DNA from: Cyanobium sp. ATX 6F1 | Lineage (GTDB): Bacteria > Cyanobacteriota > Cyanobacteriia > PCC-6307 > Cyanobiaceae | Assembly: GCF_024346315.1 (NCBI RefSeq) | Contig: NZ_JAGQCS010000001.1 | Span: 310,001 to 374,000, forward strand | Direction of reading: 5' to 3' | DNA length: 64,000 nucleotides | Position numbers and translations under genes: made by a program | In this document: positions 34,393 to 44,522 of the stretch, in pieces | Layout of the letters: the number at the start of each line of letters is the position of its first letter | Numbering within the stretch: position 1 is the first letter of the stretch | The notes under the pieces: generated by a model | The model's input: the letters and a program-made list of their open reading frames with translations, nothing else | The model's database searches: none | What the model was told of the DNA's origin: nothing

Positions 34393-34832
34393 TCGCGTGA
34401 TCTCTTCGCTCCTCGCCGCCACCGGGATGGGTGGCTGAGGTCACGCCTGCACGGCGCCTCTCCCGCGGCTGCGGTGCCGCTGCTCATCCGGCCGGCTGGT
34501 GCTTGATGGATCAGGTGTGCTGATTGCAAGAGGTTCCCTCGCGCGGCTGCGCGGGCTATCAATCAGGCCTGGAGCACCAAGCTGGCCACAAAGATGGCCA
34601 GTTGGACGCCACTCAATTCAGCCGTGGAGCGTGAGCTGTGACCCCTCAAATTCCAGTGATTGCAGTGGCTCTGGCCTGCATAAAGTGGATTTGTACTGCT
34701 AAGATTAGGTCAGCGCCAAAGGCCCCGAGCCCATCGCCTGCGGCAACGTCATCCCCTGATCTCGCCATCACCGCCGCATTCGTATCAGCGGCATGATGCC
34801 CCGATCAGTTGTCACCTGCGGCAACTGATTCC
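34393..34832. other. Gene-free stretch before the SLOG gene
   Basis: About 440 nt with no credible coding frame. It goes from very G/C-rich DNA with palindromic runs (near 34535-34555) to a more AT-rich part (about 34640-34720) that may include the promoter of the next operon. I see no clear -35/-10 pair. Confidence 0.4.
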
Positions 34833-35330
34833 ATGGCTGTTTGTACTTCATCCAGGCCTGAAGTGGGCCCCGGTCGCTCCCTTGTGATCGTGGCCGGCGG
34901 CGGCCGAGATCTGGCCTGGCCCCATCAGCGGGTGGCTGCTGAGCTGCTGGCCCGCAGCAGCGGCCGGCTCGTTCATCTGCTGCTCCATGGCGGAGCACGC
35001 GGAGCCGATGCCGCCATCGCCCGCGCCGCCCATCAGCTGGGTTGGTCGGCACTGGTCATGCCTGCCGAGTGGCGGCGCCATGGCCGGGCTGCCGGGCCGA
35101 TCCGTAATCGGGAACTGCTCGAACTGGCCGTTGCCCGGGCCTTGTCCCACTCCTCCCCCGGTGTCTCCACCTCGGTGCTGGTGGTGGCCTTCCCCGGCGG
35201 GCCAGGCACCGCCTCCCTGGTGCAGCAGGCCCGCCGGATGGCCTCACGCTCCCCGGTGCCGATCGCCGTGGTGGAAGTCAGCCCATCCGCCGGTCGCTGG
35301 GCCCATCCCGCTGCTGCCGCTCGCTGTTGA
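34833..35330 (+). CDS. SLOG-domain protein (DUF2493/YspA-like)
   Basis: A 165-residue Rossmann-like protein of the SLOG superfamily, which binds nucleotide-derived ligands. Diagnostic blocks: IVAGGGRDLAWP at the N-terminus, LLLHGGARGADAAIARAA near residue 50, WRRHGRAAGPIRNRELLELA near 80 and VVAFPGGPGTASLV near 115. Such proteins are frequent in phages and defence-linked loci. The ATG at 34833 is preferred to a TTG 24 nt upstream. It is followed 48 nt later by the Gp157-like gene. Confidence 0.85.
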   Translation: MAVCTSSRPEVGPGRSLVIVAGGGRDLAWPHQRVAAELLARSSGRLVHLLLHGGARGADAAIARAAHQLGWSALVMPAEWRRHGRAAGPIRNRELLELAVARALSHSSPGVSTSVLVVAFPGGPGTASLVQQARRMASRSPVPIAVVEVSPSAGRWAHPAAAARC

Positions 35331-35378
35331 AGCCTTCCGCGCCTGTTGCTGCCTCCGTTCCCCATTCCTCTCAACGAC

Positions 35379-36020
35379 ATGGCTGTTCTCACCCCCATCC
35401 CGATCGCTTCCGTCTCTCCGGCCATTGCCCCACCGGTAGCTGCTTCTGAATCCGCCGGTCCCGCCTGCGCCTTGCAGCGCAACGGTTCCCTCTGGCAGCT
35501 GGGCATCGAGGCCCAGGAGCTCACCACCGCCATCGGCCAGCTGGCCGAGCAGCTTGAGGCCGATGACGACGATTCCCGCAGTCAGGCCCTCGCTGAGCTG
35601 GAGGCCGCCCTGCTGGCTGAGGAGGGCAACAAGCAGGCCCTGGCGGCCAAGGCCGATGCCACCTGCTGGGTGATCGAGCATCTGCGCGGCCAGGCCGCCT
35701 ATCGCCAGCAGCAGGCCAAGCGCCTCACGGAGCTTTCCCGCTCCGATGTCGGCCGGGCCGATGCCTTGGAGGAATCGCTGGTGCTGGTGCTCACCCGGCT
35801 ACAGCCCGGCGCCACCGCCTTCTCTTTCCCCAATCACGAGCTCAGCAGCCGCAAATCCCAGGCCGTCGAGATCGAGGACGAGGAGACCCTGGCGCGGGAG
35901 TGGCAGTCCTCCACCACCAGCTGGAAGCCGGATCGCCTGCTCATCAAAGACGCGCTTAAGGCAGGCCAGGACGTCCCAGGCGCCCAGCTGATCAGCCGCC
36001 GCAGCTGGCGCATCCGCTGA
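35379..36020 (+). CDS. Phage Gp157-like protein
   Basis: A 213-residue protein resembling the siphovirus Gp157 family of early phage genes. Its helical region has LAAKADATCWVIEHLRGQAA and QQAKRLTELSRSDVGRADAL. The conserved C-terminal half includes FSFPNHELSSRKSQAVEIED and ends PGAQLISRRSWRIR. The N-terminal 45 residues are low-complexity. It precedes a Rad52-like recombinase gene, matching phage replication/recombination modules. Biochemical role unknown. Confidence 0.8.
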   Translation: MAVLTPIPIASVSPAIAPPVAASESAGPACALQRNGSLWQLGIEAQELTTAIGQLAEQLEADDDDSRSQALAELEAALLAEEGNKQALAAKADATCWVIEHLRGQAAYRQQQAKRLTELSRSDVGRADALEESLVLVLTRLQPGATAFSFPNHELSSRKSQAVEIEDEETLAREWQSSTTSWKPDRLLIKDALKAGQDVPGAQLISRRSWRIR

Positions 36021-36087
36021 CCGGCCAGAGCTGTTTCAACCGGGCCGCTGCCTGGCGGCCCACTGCACCCCCCTTACAGAACAAGCC

Positions 36088-36873
36088 ATGACCAGCAGCA
36101 CCTTTACTGCCGAGCAGATCGCCACCCTCACTGCACCCCTCGATCGCGCCAAGGTGCGTCAGCGGGAGCAGGGCCGGACCACCGTCAGCTACCTGGAGGG
36201 ATGGCAGGTGATCGCGGAAGCCAACCGCATCTTTGGCTTTGACGGTTGGACGCGAGAAACAACCTCAGTCCGCTGCGTCAACCAGAGCGAGCGCAGCATC
36301 GGCCGGGACAACCGCCCTGGCTGGGGCGTCACCTACACAGCCCGGGTTCGCATCACCGTCGGCCATCTGGGCACCGCCCCACTGATCCGCGAGGGAACCG
36401 GCGCCGGCCACGGCATTGACGTGGACCTGGGCCAGGCCCATGAATCGGCCATCAAGGAGTCCGAAACCGATGCCATGAAGCGTGCCCTGATGACCTTCGG
36501 GAACCCGTTCGGGCTGGCGCTTTATGACAAGCAGCAGCGGGAGGTCACCCAATCGGAAGGGGACAGAGCCCATCAAGTCCCTGCCAGCAACGGCAAGAGG
36601 TCGATCCATCGCCGCCCGTCCCCCGCGGCACAGAACGCCGCAGCGGAAGCCACAGGCGACCCAAGCCTGTCGCCCCTCGATCCGGCCACCATCAGCCAGA
36701 TGTTGGCCACCCTGCGCAGTCTGCCGAGGCCGGTGCTGGAGGGGTTCACCAAGGCTTTCCGCAAGCGCTTTCAGGTCCCGGAGGACGCCACCTCCATCGC
36801 CGATCGGATTTGTCAGAAGCGTCACCACGACTGGATCGAGGCGTATTTGGTTCAGCACCAGAGCGTTGTCTGA
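36088..36873 (+). CDS. Rad52/22-like single-strand annealing protein
   Basis: A 261-residue phage-type recombinase that anneals complementary strands. The Rad52/22 core is seen in YLEGWQVIAEANRIFGFDGW, YTARVRITVG, GTGAGHGIDVDLGQAHESAI and SETDAMKRALMTFGNPFGLA. A variable linker (about 150-190) leads to a C-terminal segment TKAFRKRFQVPEDATSIADR near residue 228, which is duplicated downstream at 37.5-37.9 kb. An exonuclease partner is not adjacent. Confidence 0.85.
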   Translation: MTSSTFTAEQIATLTAPLDRAKVRQREQGRTTVSYLEGWQVIAEANRIFGFDGWTRETTSVRCVNQSERSIGRDNRPGWGVTYTARVRITVGHLGTAPLIREGTGAGHGIDVDLGQAHESAIKESETDAMKRALMTFGNPFGLALYDKQQREVTQSEGDRAHQVPASNGKRSIHRRPSPAAQNAAAEATGDPSLSPLDPATISQMLATLRSLPRPVLEGFTKAFRKRFQVPEDATSIADRICQKRHHDWIEAYLVQHQSVV

Positions 36874-36943
36874 GATCCAGTGATCCGGCAGCTCAGATCG
36901 GATGAGCTGCCTACCATTCATGAGACCGGCCGCCCTAAGGGCC

Positions 36944-37186
36944 ATGACCACGCAAACCGATCTGGGCTGGGCAGGCTGCAGTGCTGTGGAGATGGATCCT
37001 CAGCGCGTGAGCGGAGCCTGGGTGTTCCGCGGTACCCGGATTCCGGTGGCGGCTCTGTTCGAAAACCTGGAAGACGGTGTCTCCTTGGCTGAATTCGTCG
37101 AACTGTTCCCAGGGGTGAGCCTCGAGCAGTCACGGCTAGTCCTGGAGCACGCCGCTCGGAGCACCGCTGCTGCCGCACTGGCCTGA
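36944..37186 (+). CDS. DUF433-family antitoxin
   Basis: An 80-residue DUF433 protein. The domain is shown by SGAWVFRGTRIPVAALFENL and DGVSLAEFVELFPGVSLEQS, a small helical DNA-binding fold. It is usually the antitoxin partner of a PIN-like DUF5615 protein, which follows at once: its stop at 37184-37186 abuts the next GTG. The ATG at 36944 gives the usual length. Confidence 0.85.
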   Translation: MTTQTDLGWAGCSAVEMDPQRVSGAWVFRGTRIPVAALFENLEDGVSLAEFVELFPGVSLEQSRLVLEHAARSTAAAALA

Positions 37187-37507
37187 GTGCGGATCCTGTT
37201 TGACCAGGGGACACCCGTTCCCCTCCGCCGCTCATTGACCGGCCATGTGGTGGTCACGGCCTATGAGCTGGGTTGGTCGACCGTCACCAATGGCGAGCTG
37301 ATTCGCCTGGCGGAGCGGGAGGGCTACGAGCTCCTGATGACCACCGATACGAACCTGCGATATCAGCAGAACCTGAGCGGGCGCAGCAACGCGATCCTGG
37401 TGCTGACAACAACCAGCTGGCCGCGGATTCGGGAGGTCACAGGCGAGCTCCAGGCAGCGGTCGCCGCCATTGAAAGCGGTGGCTACGAGGAACTGTTCAT
37501 TCCCTGA
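37187..37507 (+). CDS. DUF5615 PIN-like toxin
   Basis: A 106-residue PIN-like predicted nuclease. It starts MRILFDQGTPVPLRRSL, with an acidic residue at the usual first site; then TAYELGWSTVTNGELIRLAE, and LMTTDTNLRYQQNLSGR, which carries the second acidic site. It begins with a GTG directly after the DUF433 stop. The pair sits between a Rad52-like gene and a copy of that gene's 3' part. Confidence 0.85.
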   Translation: MRILFDQGTPVPLRRSLTGHVVVTAYELGWSTVTNGELIRLAEREGYELLMTTDTNLRYQQNLSGRSNAILVLTTTSWPRIREVTGELQAAVAAIESGGYEELFIP

Positions 37508-37529
37508 ACACCTCAGCGCCGCAGTCGCG

Positions 37530-37883
37530 AACATCCCTTCGCGGCGCCCAGCAGCTGGCAACGGCCACGCTCCCAACCGCCTGCCCGCAGGTTTGCCATC
37601 CGATGCTGCACCGACCGATGGCGCCGACTCAGCCATCGAGGACCAGGCGCTGCTGCCCCTCGATGGCGCCACGATCCAGCGGATTCACGCCACCATTCGC
37701 AGCCTTTCCCAGCCTCAGCTGGAGGGGTACCGCTCCGCGGAAGACTCCGTCTTCACCAAAGCATTCCGCAAGCGGTTTCAGGTCCCGGAGGAGGCAACTT
37801 CCATCGCCGATCGGATGCTGCAGAAGCGGCATCACGATTGGATCGAGGCCTTCCTGGTGCAGCACGCAGCTGTTCCAGCGTGA
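37530..37883 (+). pseudogene. Duplicated 3' part of the Rad52-like gene
   Basis: The frame repeats the C-terminus of the protein at 36088-36873: TKAFRKRFQVPEEATSIADR and QKRHHDWIEAFLVQH match the upstream copy almost residue for residue, with a small insert (YRSAEDSVF) and a divergent linker. There is no Rad52 core and no clear start; the frame runs back into the toxin gene. I read it as a remnant left when the toxin-antitoxin pair entered, or by recombination with a related phage. Confidence 0.7.
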
Positions 37884-38265: not shown

Positions 38266-39098
38266 CGTTCAGCTCTCCGCTCACACGCGATCGACTGCCG
38301 TTCTCGCCCTAGACATCTCCATCGATGTCACCTGGCGGGAGCGGATGAGCAAAGCAGGCGCAGTCCCCCGCCATGGGTGGGCGGTTGTTGAGTTGTACGG
38401 ATCGGGCTCCGGTGACTGCCGGGAATGATTCAGCATGAAAAGGCTCCAGAACATGTGGAGTGGCCCGCAAGGGGAGGCTCAGGGAGGTCAGATTCCCTGG
38501 GCCCTTCTTGCGTAGAAGGGCCGTCCCGTGCGGAGTTCAAGGTCTAGCACCGGCTTCTGGGCCAAGACGGGCGGCAAACACCAGGAGTGGTGTAAGGGCC
38601 CTCAGCGATTGCCAGATTTGGTGGTTGTCCGTAGGATCGCCCCCTTGTGATCTGGTTGTGAGAGCCCGTCTGGCTGGGCATCCCGAGAACCGGCGCAACC
38701 TCATTCCAGTAACACCGCGCAAAGGCACTGCAGCGCAACGGTTCTCATCGTTCTCAATAAGGCGCGTGTGACAACCGAAGAAGTGGCGGCTCCTCGGACG
38801 GTCTTCGGTCGAGCCGGAGTCGAGCCAGTGCAGGCGTGGGCAACTGATCGGTGATGGCGGTTCTTCCTCCCCGGCAGATAGCGCAAGCTGTTCGGCTCAA
38901 GATGTCGATCGACGAGCGGCCCTACCTCCATGTCACGGCTGACGCTGCCAGGGGCATCTGCAAACCCTGTCGGCCTGTTCCGCTTGCCAGGGAGGCTCGG
39001 TATAAACCGGGTAATCCTTTCAGCCAATGCCCAGCCACACCGCCGGCACTGCCTTGGGCAGCGATCCTTGCGCAGGCATGGGAGGCAACGCCACCCGC
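38266..39098. other. Long gene-poor stretch (about 830 nt)
   Basis: Short frames are present on both strands but none has family features, good starts or consistent composition. Several G/C-rich inverted segments occur. No tRNA, CRISPR repeat or transposase remnant is recognised. It may be decayed sequence or hold untranslated RNA. Confidence 0.4.
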
Positions 39099-39122
39099 CT
39101 ACCTGCTGCAGCCAGCAGGTAG
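39099..39122 (+). promoter_or_regulatory. Perfect 10-bp hairpin abutting a start codon
   Basis: CTACCTGCTG (39099-39108), loop CAGC, CAGCAGGTAG (39113-39122), then three bases and the ATG at 39126. The right arm contains AGCAGG, the only ribosome-binding-like sequence available, so the hairpin would hide it. It could be an operator or a translational brake on the two-gene unit that follows. There is no T-run, so it is not a terminator. Confidence 0.55.
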
Positions 39123-39125
39123 CGC

Positions 39126-39578
39126 ATGCCCGTCCCAGGTTTTGATCGGTATGGCCTGCTTCCAGGTGGAGTTCATGGATGCACGATGCAGGAAGTGGAG
39201 GCCGCCCTTGCTTGGAATGCCCAACGGCGTCAGCTGACCTCGCTGCTGAGGGAATTCATCACGGAGGAACTGTCACCTCGCTTTTCTGTGCTTCCTCCCG
39301 TGGTGCTGGACGGCAGTTATGTGACCTCGGAGGAGAACCCAGCCGACATCAACCTCGTCATGGAGCTGCAGGAATTTCCTGATCAGCAAAAGATGCAGGC
39401 ACTTGAGCTTTGCCAACGATGCCCTGACATCCTGCTGCGTTATCGGATCGACCTGAAAACAGCGCTGCAGCGATCGGGGGCAGACCTTGTTGCTTACTTC
39501 AGCTCTTTGGATCCCAGGGAGGCAATCGCCATGAATCTGTATCACGACCACAAAAAAGGTCTGTTGAGGTTGCGGTGA
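39126..39578 (+). CDS. DUF6932-like protein with a degenerate nucleotidyltransferase motif
   Basis: A 150-residue protein. The N-terminal PGFDRYGLLPGGVHGCTMQE is typical of DUF6932 proteins, often annotated beside nucleotidyltransferases. The core VVLDGSYVTSEENPADINLV looks like the G-S-x(n)-D-x-D metal site of a minimal nucleotidyltransferase, but the second Asp is Asn (DIN). A later acidic site may be YRIDLKTAL. Its stop overlaps the partner start (TGATG at 39576-39580). The name is assigned from pattern memory. Confidence 0.65.
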   Translation: MPVPGFDRYGLLPGGVHGCTMQEVEAALAWNAQRRQLTSLLREFITEELSPRFSVLPPVVLDGSYVTSEENPADINLVMELQEFPDQQKMQALELCQRCPDILLRYRIDLKTALQRSGADLVAYFSSLDPREAIAMNLYHDHKKGLLRLR

Positions 39579-40585
39579 TGGGCGGCTGGATCGACGCGAC
39601 TGAGGGCAAGGCCCGCATCATCCACCAGGAGTTACTGGCGGCGCGTGAGCTAGCCGTGCGCATGGGCAAAGATCCCGATGAAATCAGCTCTCCCTATTTC
39701 GAGCTGCTCGCGAAGCTCTATCGGGATGATTTCCCCATTGCCTTCCTGGCGGATCATTCGGATTTGGTCGCTCGCTTTACGGGGCCAGGGGTTCTCAATC
39801 ACGAGCCGCCGGTTTCGCTGGTCACCGGAGCCTTCTCCAAGCTGCGCACGCAGATTCAGCACATCGCCAAATCGATCGCAGGGCTGGAAGAGAAGAAGGT
39901 GCGTTGGCCTGAGCATCTCGATCCCAACCTGTCCGGGTTGGCCTACGGAAGCCTGGTGGTGGGGATGCGGGTGCCGCGCCCTGGGGAACTGGACTCCCAG
40001 GGGCAGTTGGTTCTCGAAGGCGTCACCGACGGGCTTTACCAAGCCGTGCGTGACGCTGTCCGCAGCCTTCCCATCATCCCAAGGCTGATCGAGGATGACG
40101 GTGTCAGTGAAGAGGTTTATTCCCTGTTTCCTGATCCTGCCGTACGAGACACGATCATGCTGGCTGCCCACAAGCTGGCCCCATCCTCCAAGAACAAAGG
40201 CATCACCAATTTGTACCTGAGTTGCCCAGGAGAAGACGAGCTGGCACCCACTGCGCTGACCAAGAAGAGCCGGGAGATCTTGAGGAAAAGCTTGAACGAA
40301 CCGTCCTGGAAGCGCTCCAGTGGCACCGATTCCTTTGAGGGTGTGGTGCGGGAAATCGATCTGGATGCCTTTCGCTTTGAGATCCGCGGCGCCCGGTATC
40401 TGCGCGGCATCCGTTGCATGTACGACGAGCGGTATAAGACAAAAGTCAAGGAGATTCTTGATTGCACCGTCCGGGTCAGCGGCAGCTATGAGGCGGCTGC
40501 CGACAAGCAGCCCAGTCTTGTGGCGGTGGAATCCATTGAGATTCTGCGCAGGGCCGACGAACAGCTGGACCTGCTTGGGCACTGA
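39578..40585 (+). CDS. Unknown partner of the DUF6932-like gene
   Basis: A 335-residue protein with no recognised family. The N-terminal 110 residues are helical (ARELAVRMGKDPDEISSPYF, LRTQIQHIAKSIAGLEEKKV). The middle is mixed. The C-terminal 90 residues look like a small beta-barrel (SFEGVVREIDLDAFRFEIRG, then ILDCTVRVSGSYE). The ATG at 39578 overlaps the upstream stop, so the two are co-translated. No nuclease or ATPase motif is visible. Soluble, no signal peptide. Confidence 0.7.
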   Translation: MGGWIDATEGKARIIHQELLAARELAVRMGKDPDEISSPYFELLAKLYRDDFPIAFLADHSDLVARFTGPGVLNHEPPVSLVTGAFSKLRTQIQHIAKSIAGLEEKKVRWPEHLDPNLSGLAYGSLVVGMRVPRPGELDSQGQLVLEGVTDGLYQAVRDAVRSLPIIPRLIEDDGVSEEVYSLFPDPAVRDTIMLAAHKLAPSSKNKGITNLYLSCPGEDELAPTALTKKSREILRKSLNEPSWKRSSGTDSFEGVVREIDLDAFRFEIRGARYLRGIRCMYDERYKTKVKEILDCTVRVSGSYEAAADKQPSLVAVESIEILRRADEQLDLLGH

Positions 40586-42841: not shown

Positions 42842-43263
42842 CAGGACGGCACCGTGTCGTGCTCGACCAGGGCCCGCACCGTCACCGTCGCCGCATGGGC
42901 CACGTTCAGCGCAGTGCGCACCCGAGCGAAGAGCCGCGCCTTGAGCGGCGTCTCGCCATTGGAATAGGTCGAGCCCGGTGCAGGCCACAGCCACGGGATC
43001 ACGCCATCGAAGCTCAGATCCAGCAGCACTCCGCTTGAGAGCGGCGGATCCTCCACGATCGGCCGCGCCGTATCAGCGTTCCGCGCCTGCGCGCTCGCAT
43101 AAAAGGTGATCCAGGCGGCGATGTCACAACCGACCGCCAGGAAGCGGCCATCAGTGCCCAGCTCCACGAAGGTCAGATCCAGCACCGACGGCGCCGTGAC
43201 AGTCGCCGTGACCCGCTGCTCCTCCACGCGCCGAGGCGTGTCGATCCGGGGAACCCAGCCCAT
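42841..43263 (-). CDS. Hypothetical virion-cluster protein
   Basis: A 140-residue protein starting MGWVPRIDTPRR. It is beta-rich (TATVTAPSVLDLTFVELGTD, LLDLSFDGVIPWLWPAPG), with no recognised family. Start and stop overlap both neighbours, a tightly packed phage-like arrangement. Probably a small baseplate or tail component, by position only. Confidence 0.55.
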   Translation of the reverse strand: MGWVPRIDTPRRVEEQRVTATVTAPSVLDLTFVELGTDGRFLAVGCDIAAWITFYASAQARNADTARPIVEDPPLSSGVLLDLSFDGVIPWLWPAPGSTYSNGETPLKARLFARVRTALNVAHAATVTVRALVEHDTVPS

Positions 43264-44522
43264 CAGGGCACCACAGGGATTTTGCGGATGGCGCGAGTGG
43301 TCTGGCTGAAGCTCTTGCTGATGGGCCCCCACGAGCCGTAATACCAGTCCTGGCAGATCGCCGTGGTGGCCTGATCCTCAGTCGAGGTCCACATGTTCCC
43401 CTCGAAGAACGCCTGAGCACCACCAATGGAGAAGCCCGTCACCACGGTTTGGGCCGGGATCGACAGGCTGTAGTTCGCCGTGGTCACCGGCACCGCGTAG
43501 GGGTTGGCGCCATAGCCCGGAGTGCTGCCATCGGTGTTGTCGGGCTTGAACCTCCGGTACAGGATCTCCAGCTCGTAGAGCGCCGGCACATACCAGTCGC
43601 TGTAGCCGCCGATCGTGAGCGCCCGCGCCCACTGGGCAGCGGGGTGGCCCGCATCGTTGGCGGCGTTGCTGTTGGCCAGCCCATCGAACGTGCTCGTGGC
43701 CCCGGCCGTGGCCGTATTGGCGGTCTTGAGCACCTTCAGGGCCTGACCCGTGGACTTGGGCGAAATGATCAGCGCATGGGTGGCCACCCCATTCGCCGTA
43801 GCCGAGATCAGCCCGCCGTAGTAGCCCCCCTCATAGGCAGAACCGATCGCCGGCAGGCTGCCAACCGGAGTGCCAGCACTCACCGTCAGCTTGTAGACGG
43901 TGCCCGACACGTTGTCGAGGTACATGTCCCCGTCGATCTGGCCGGGGATGTTGGCCGGTGGCGGCCCGGATCCCACAAACCAGCCCGTGCCGCGGGAGCC
44001 CACCGCGCCAGTGGTGCCAGCCACGCCAGCAGGGCCCTGGATGCCAGCCGATCCAGCCGTACCAGCCGGGCCCTGGGGGCCAGCGGCGCCAGCCGGACCT
44101 TGGGCACCTGCTGTTCCAGCGGGGCCCGTCGGACCGGCCGGGCCTTGGATCTGACCTGCGTTGACCCAGTTGCTGCCAGCGGCGTTCCAGGAATAGAGCG
44201 TGTCGCCCTCGTCTTGAACGATGTAGGCGTCACCCTGCTGCCGGTTCGAGGTCGGCAGCGCCGAGTAGGTGGCGACCGAGCCCTTGAGGTTGATGCCGGT
44301 GCCGGCCGCGCCTTGCGGGCCAGTCGGACCGGCTGCTCCAGGAGCTCCAGCCGTGCCAGCCGGACCTTGCGGGCCAGTGCTGCCAGCTGTACCTGCTGTG
44401 CCGGCGGTGCCCTGCGGGCCGGCTGGACCTTGCGGGCCGGCTGACCCGGGTGCGCCCGCCGTGCCGGTCGGTCCAGGGGAACCCTGCGGACCCAGCAGGG
44501 AGCCGGTGTTATTCCAGGGCAT
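43263..44522 (-). CDS. Collagen-like fibre protein with a C-terminal lectin-type domain
   Basis: A 419-residue protein. Collagen Gly-X-Y repeats occupy about residues 11-74 and 128-172, separated by a beta insert (GDAYIVQDEGDTLYSWNAAG). A fibre motif GQIDGDMYLDNVSGTVYKL follows near 190. The C-terminal 150 residues resemble a DUF1566/Lcl or C-type-lectin fold (ARALTIGGYSDWYVPALYEL, GNMWTSTEDQATTAICQDWY). Phage tail fibres with this layout bind host surfaces. A TGGCAATAG motif lies 27 nt upstream. Confidence 0.75.
   Translation of the reverse strand: MPWNNTGSLLGPQGSPGPTGTAGAPGSAGPQGPAGPQGTAGTAGTAGSTGPQGPAGTAGAPGAAGPTGPQGAAGTGINLKGSVATYSALPTSNRQQGDAYIVQDEGDTLYSWNAAGSNWVNAGQIQGPAGPTGPAGTAGAQGPAGAAGPQGPAGTAGSAGIQGPAGVAGTTGAVGSRGTGWFVGSGPPPANIPGQIDGDMYLDNVSGTVYKLTVSAGTPVGSLPAIGSAYEGGYYGGLISATANGVATHALIISPKSTGQALKVLKTANTATAGATSTFDGLANSNAANDAGHPAAQWARALTIGGYSDWYVPALYELEILYRRFKPDNTDGSTPGYGANPYAVPVTTANYSLSIPAQTVVTGFSIGGAQAFFEGNMWTSTEDQATTAICQDWYYGSWGPISKSFSQTTRAIRKIPVVP

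Follow-up and report, generated by a model that had tools for sequence, protein, structure and literature searches.

The window, the whole 64-kb stretch of Cyanobium sp. ATX 6F1 DNA analysed here, contains two overlapping genes, A and B, which are preceded by a short leader open reading frame (ORF) and a promoter-like box. The features considered, all on the forward strand, are listed below in window coordinates.

34809..36873, + strand: SLOG (YAcAr), Sipho_Gp157 and Rad52_Rad22 genes located 5' of the pair, assigned by Pfam
39000..39006, + strand: GTATAAA box, conserved across loci, probable promoter element (-10) of the operon
39027..39122, + strand: leader ORF of 31 codons, with a TAG stop 3 nt ahead of gene A
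39099..39122, + strand: hairpin with a 10-bp stem over the gene A ribosome-binding region, its 3' arm ending with the leader stop codon
39126..39578, + strand: gene A, encoding a 150-aa DUF6932 protein (apparent pseudo-nucleotidyltransferase), matching PF22014 and PDC-M63A
39312..39353, + strand: GS...DxN motif of gene A (residues 63–76), the second carboxylate being N or V in all copies
39578..40585, + strand: gene B, 335 aa, with N-terminal helices, a middle domain with a GS-strand motif and a predicted C-terminal OB fold
40316..40567, + strand: predicted C-terminal OB fold of gene B (residues 247–330), from two predicted models with Z about 10

The stop codon of gene A and the start codon of gene B share one base in the sequence TGATG, as the first-pass annotation had described, and the coupling it proposed for the two genes is borne out by a survey of co-occurrence. 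A profile of gene B matched 17 of 300 genomes of the family Cyanobiaceae, with the named contigs belonging to Cyanobium and Synechococcus, and 13 genomes hold a total of 14 intact loci. A DUF6932 gene lies directly upstream of gene B in all 14; gene order never varies, and the junction is TGATG-like or close. The gene B homologue of genome G562 is truncated, and only short remnants are found in G468 and G267; an apparent decay of the family in G538 was rejected, since both pieces sit at contig ends. The pair was found on chromosomes and, once, on an IMG/VR contig (L049/L050). In pairwise comparisons (NG86), dN is well below dS for both genes; between the window and locus L035, dN and dS are 0.118/0.877 for gene A and 0.056/0.249 for gene B. 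Both genes are under purifying selection, and A and B are a real, conserved two-protein unit of some freshwater cyanobacteria. One genome, G554, carries two copies of the pair, L036 and L037, on a single contig (C18) at a distance of about 56 kb; in the alignments the two copies do not differ in their A and B proteins.

Gene A matches PF22014 (DUF6932) with an E-value of 2.5e-18 (67.3 bits, against a gathering score of 27) and the PADLOC model PDC-M63A with an E-value of 3.1e-9. Residues 63–76 read GSYVTSEENPADIN, with DxN in place of DxD, which agrees with the G-S...D-x-N site and the degenerate, nucleotidyltransferase-like character noted previously. Across 13 aligned copies of gene A the second carboxylate is replaced by N, or by V in two, and most copies in the clade are also without the first carboxylate. 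The DxD motif is intact in DUF6932 relatives from prophages and other cyanobacteria; membership of the Pfam family is set by its profile, of which this motif is no defining part. The assignment of DUF6932 to a nucleotidyltransferase fold is tentative. It draws on the motif and on weak profile matches to PDB entries at the GS..DxD region (CD-NTases, E 0.08 and 0.64; poly(A) polymerase, E 0.32), which occur among unrelated matches. As selection on gene A has been kept while the motif was lost, a non-catalytic role is indicated, and gene A is apparently a non-catalytic DUF6932 subunit. HEPN-MNT and MenAT toxin-antitoxin (TA) systems combine a catalytically competent nucleotidyltransferase with a known type of partner; the pair described here lies outside that class, as the gene A motif is lost and gene B has no Pfam match.

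Gene B was described at first pass as unrecognised, and searches of its sequence against Pfam, NCBIfam, PADLOC, PHROGs and PDB sequences were indeed all negative, which rules out a known sequence family in these five databases. A search for plasmid relatives of gene B also returned none. The first AlphaFold model (mean pLDDT 51, pTM 0.34) was confident mainly in the C-terminal domain and low in the middle region, and its OB domain was close to AsnRS/AspRS, RPA and Stn1-Ten1 (Z about 10). A second model, built after B-like rows were added to an input alignment that excluded sequences from plasmid records, reached a pLDDT of 72.8 and a pTM of 0.60, and its OB domain matched PriB, SSB and RPA (Z about 10). 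AlphaFold confidence can climb from a deeper alignment alone. The structural matches listed for the two models span the OB domain and leave out the middle domain. In the models, then, the C-terminus of gene B appears as an OB fold of the single-strand-binding type, through which the protein may bind single-stranded nucleic acid. The first-pass annotation had held that placing the partner in a known family by structure would speak against a new system, and the predicted OB fold goes part of the way towards such a placement. The best viral Foldseek match of the second model is a protein annotated as DUF6575 (E 1.7e-7, with a TM-score of only 0.29). DUF6575 features in an E. coli system with validated anti-phage activity (PMC9519451); the Pfam search gave no sequence match of gene B to DUF6575 (PF20215).

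Among IMG/VR loci with B-like genes, DUF6932 adjoins the B-like gene in 36 of 36, with DxD intact. The DUF6932 partners from these loci and from proteobacterial plasmids are collinear with gene B, sharing an F-x-G-x-x-V segment, the GS strand and the FEG...RFEI start of the OB region. The gene B profile aligned to the profile of the prophage B-like family with E-values of 0.11 and 0.086, below significance; a further hhalign comparison, of alignment A11 with A8, was discarded as circular because A11 includes members of A8. On the strength of the predicted models and collinearity, gene B is likely to be remotely related to the prophage DUF6932 partners. One B-like member matches the PADLOC model PDC-M63B (E 3e-4), and the wider DUF6932 pair thus corresponds to PDC-M63AB, a candidate phage-defence pair of a DUF6932 protein and a partner of about 310 aa.

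The window pair resembles PDC-M63AB in gene order, with DUF6932 first, in its overlapping or abutting genes, in the collinear partner with a similar C-terminal region and in having prophage relatives. It differs in that gene A is without DxD and gene B has no match to the PDC-M63B models, its similarity being remote only, and in its location on chromosomes and one IMG/VR contig. The A-B pair is probably a diverged relative of this known candidate kind. The earlier suggestion of an undescribed system therefore holds in part, since the wider pair of DUF6932 and an OB protein is already a computational candidate. When PDC-M63AB was deleted in E. coli NILS69, no effect could be detected with any of the phages tested (PMC12409345). 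Taken with the place of DUF6575 in a validated system, this result leaves the class suspected, rather than proven, to act in defence.

Two further arrangements share one half of the pair. DUF6932 genes followed by a close partner gene occur in other cyanobacteria; in contrast to the window, DxD is intact and the partner gene encodes an HTH protein of XRE type. In Sinorhizobium the corresponding partner is an XRE-HTH and Peptidase_M78 protein; the cyanobacterial and Sinorhizobium loci together are L051–L061, L063–L065 and L074. Conversely, the P0004-type proteins (G322, G095) are homologous to gene B (hhalign E 1.5e-5) and are likewise encoded in overlapping two-gene units, but their small partner is an unrelated protein of 176–182 aa instead of DUF6932. 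The one such partner scanned, P0006, had no match in Pfam. Loci L004 and L077 combine a gene B homologue with a small P0006-type partner whose conserved LEVSG...K segment is, by eye only, possibly nuclease-like.

Alignment of the upstream regions revealed GGTATAAA in 13 of 14 loci, with CTATAAC in L041, and the distance from this TATAA-type box to the leader start is constant at 27–30 nt. The box probably serves the operon as its -10 promoter element. The leader ORF, overlooked in the first-pass annotation, is present in all 14 intact loci, where it falls into five sequence groups and ends 2–3 nt before gene A. Its length is 31–32 codons in 12 of 14 loci and 17 codons in L047 and L031. The stop codons and their contexts vary by group (TAGCGCATG, TAGCGGATG, TGAGCATG, TGATGTATG and TGAAGAATG). 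When the intervening sequence was shuffled, the chance of such a leader stop was 0.010, 0.011, 0.039, 0.010 and 0.079 for the five group representatives, and an abutting upstream ORF of at least 12 codons precedes only 7 of 118 background genes. Being short, abutting a gene and conserved in position at every intact locus, the leader has the anatomy of a regulatory upstream ORF. A longer open frame upstream of gene A in L036–L040 was rejected as coding, since the MPIP start of gene A is conserved and the extension overlies the leader region. The peptide sequences are unrelated between groups, and pairwise dN/dS (NG86) within groups is about 1; translation of the leader, rather than its product, therefore seems to matter. 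The simplest reading is that the leader would act through being translated, by termination-reinitiation.

The perfect 10-bp hairpin reported 3 nt before the first gene was confirmed. Its arms, CTACCTGCTG (39099–39108) and CAGCAGGTAG (39113–39122), enclose the loop CAGC and are followed by CGC and the gene A ATG at 39126. No other perfect 10-bp stem with a loop of 3–8 nt exists in the window; after dinucleotide shuffling of the whole stretch, a mean of 1.0 such stems arises by chance, so that only the position of the hairpin is unusual. The hairpin occurs in two of 14 loci, the window and L035 (with one U-G pair in the latter), and is absent from the others, whereas the leader is present in all 14. 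It was ruled out as a general conserved regulatory element, and the hairpin control proposed earlier is not supported as the general mechanism. The leader stop forms the last three bases of the hairpin in the window and closes its 3' arm also in L035; a terminating ribosome would thus open it. Precedents for control by a leader exist in toiL, the upstream ORF of the E. coli topAI-yjhQ TA operon (PMC12121999), and in mgtQ (PMC8092293). The toiL arrangement has in common with the window a short upstream ORF and a structure over the next ribosome-binding region, the latter shared only by the window and L035. In contrast to toiL, the window leader abuts its gene, and this conserved feature suggests termination-reinitiation.

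The pair is not isolated, as had been assumed: the roughly 6 kb upstream of it include SLOG, Gp157, Rad52, DUF433/DUF5615 and Fic genes. In Cyanobiaceae the SLOG-Gp157-Rad52 module is multi-copy and dispersed, and its gene order is constant in all 20 further copies examined (L145–L164). The neighbours of these copies are unrelated (among them transposases, an Abi_2 protein, DUF5615 and housekeeping genes), and the module has the look of a recombination unit that is mobile or derived from a phage. In the window, DUF433 and DUF5615 directly follow Rad52 and precede a partial second copy of the Rad52 C-terminus with 68% identity (36902–37874); the same DUF433/DUF5615 stretch after Rad52 is found in L159 with 81% DNA identity. 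DuOB and DUF488 genes adjoin the pair in L033 (chromosome) and L049 (IMG/VR contig), suggesting a shared accessory island. Downstream of the pair, a long ORF on the minus strand (43263–44522) encodes collagen-like GPQGPAGTAG repeats.

These observations can be assembled into a leader-coupled complex of a pseudo-nucleotidyltransferase and an OB protein, encoded by an accessory leader-A-B operon of defence or TA type, a reading in which our confidence and our doubt are about equal. Transcription would probably start just after the GTATAAA box. A ribosome would translate the short leader and terminate in the gene A start region, where in the window it would have to melt the hairpin that hides the gene A ribosome-binding site, and could then reinitiate at the ATG, which begins after another 3 nt. 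Through the TGATG overlap, translation of gene B would be coupled to that of gene A. The gene A protein would most likely bind and control the gene B protein, which may in turn bind ssDNA or RNA through its predicted C-terminal OB fold, and the pair would probably serve as defence or TA-type cargo. The likeness to TA or defence units that had been proposed stands as a resemblance, seen in the PDC-M63A match, the prophage relatives and the island-type neighbours.

A classical two-protein TA system, in which one protein is toxic (B being the likeliest, through action of its OB fold on RNA or tRNA) and A neutralises it by binding, would account for the overlapping bicistron with the smaller gene first, for the patchy spread with its truncated copy and remnants, for the nearby DUF433/DUF5615 and Fic genes and for the pairing of DUF6932 with HTH proteins in other cyanobacteria. 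However, neither A nor B matches a known toxin, B exceeds the usual size of type II toxins and the catalytic site of A is lost, and we consider such a system possible but somewhat improbable. The neighbourhood offers a different reading, in which B is an SSB-like protein that works, with A as its partner, alongside the SLOG-Gp157-Rad52 annealing module and not in defence. Rad52 lies upstream of the pair in 12 of 14 loci, as close as 0.16 kb; Rad52 anneals single strands, and the modelled OB fold of B is closest to PriB, SSB and RPA. Yet Rad52 occurs in 58 of 201 genomes (up to 14 matches in G506) compared with 17 of 300 for gene B, most copies of the module are without the pair, neither A nor B was found near any of the 20 further copies, and in L038 and L041 no Rad52 adjoins the pair within the stretch examined; a recombination unit is thus unlikely. 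The leader could also encode a small protein that is a true third component, instead of being a regulatory element, as its constant position and prevailing length would allow, but the dN/dS near 1, the unrelated sequences of the groups and the 17-codon versions in two loci make this very improbable.

The leader-coupled complex can be extended to a bolder and quite unlikely proposal, a new sub-type of system in which a protein with a nucleotidyltransferase fold, permanently without catalysis, would be the regulatory subunit of an OB-fold nucleic-acid sensor. The operon would be gated by a sequence-unconstrained leader acting as a reporter of translation, and translation stress (e.g. phage shut-off) would thereby set the supply of A relative to B. 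For the preferred reading itself, the analysis connects a cyanobacterial pair that had been an orphan with the prophage pair of DUF6932 and an OB protein, which is widespread and functionally untyped, and predicts that the functional core would be the partner protein and not nucleotidyl transfer. The natural catalysis-free variant and the conserved leader ORF may thereby serve as handles on how this candidate defence system works.
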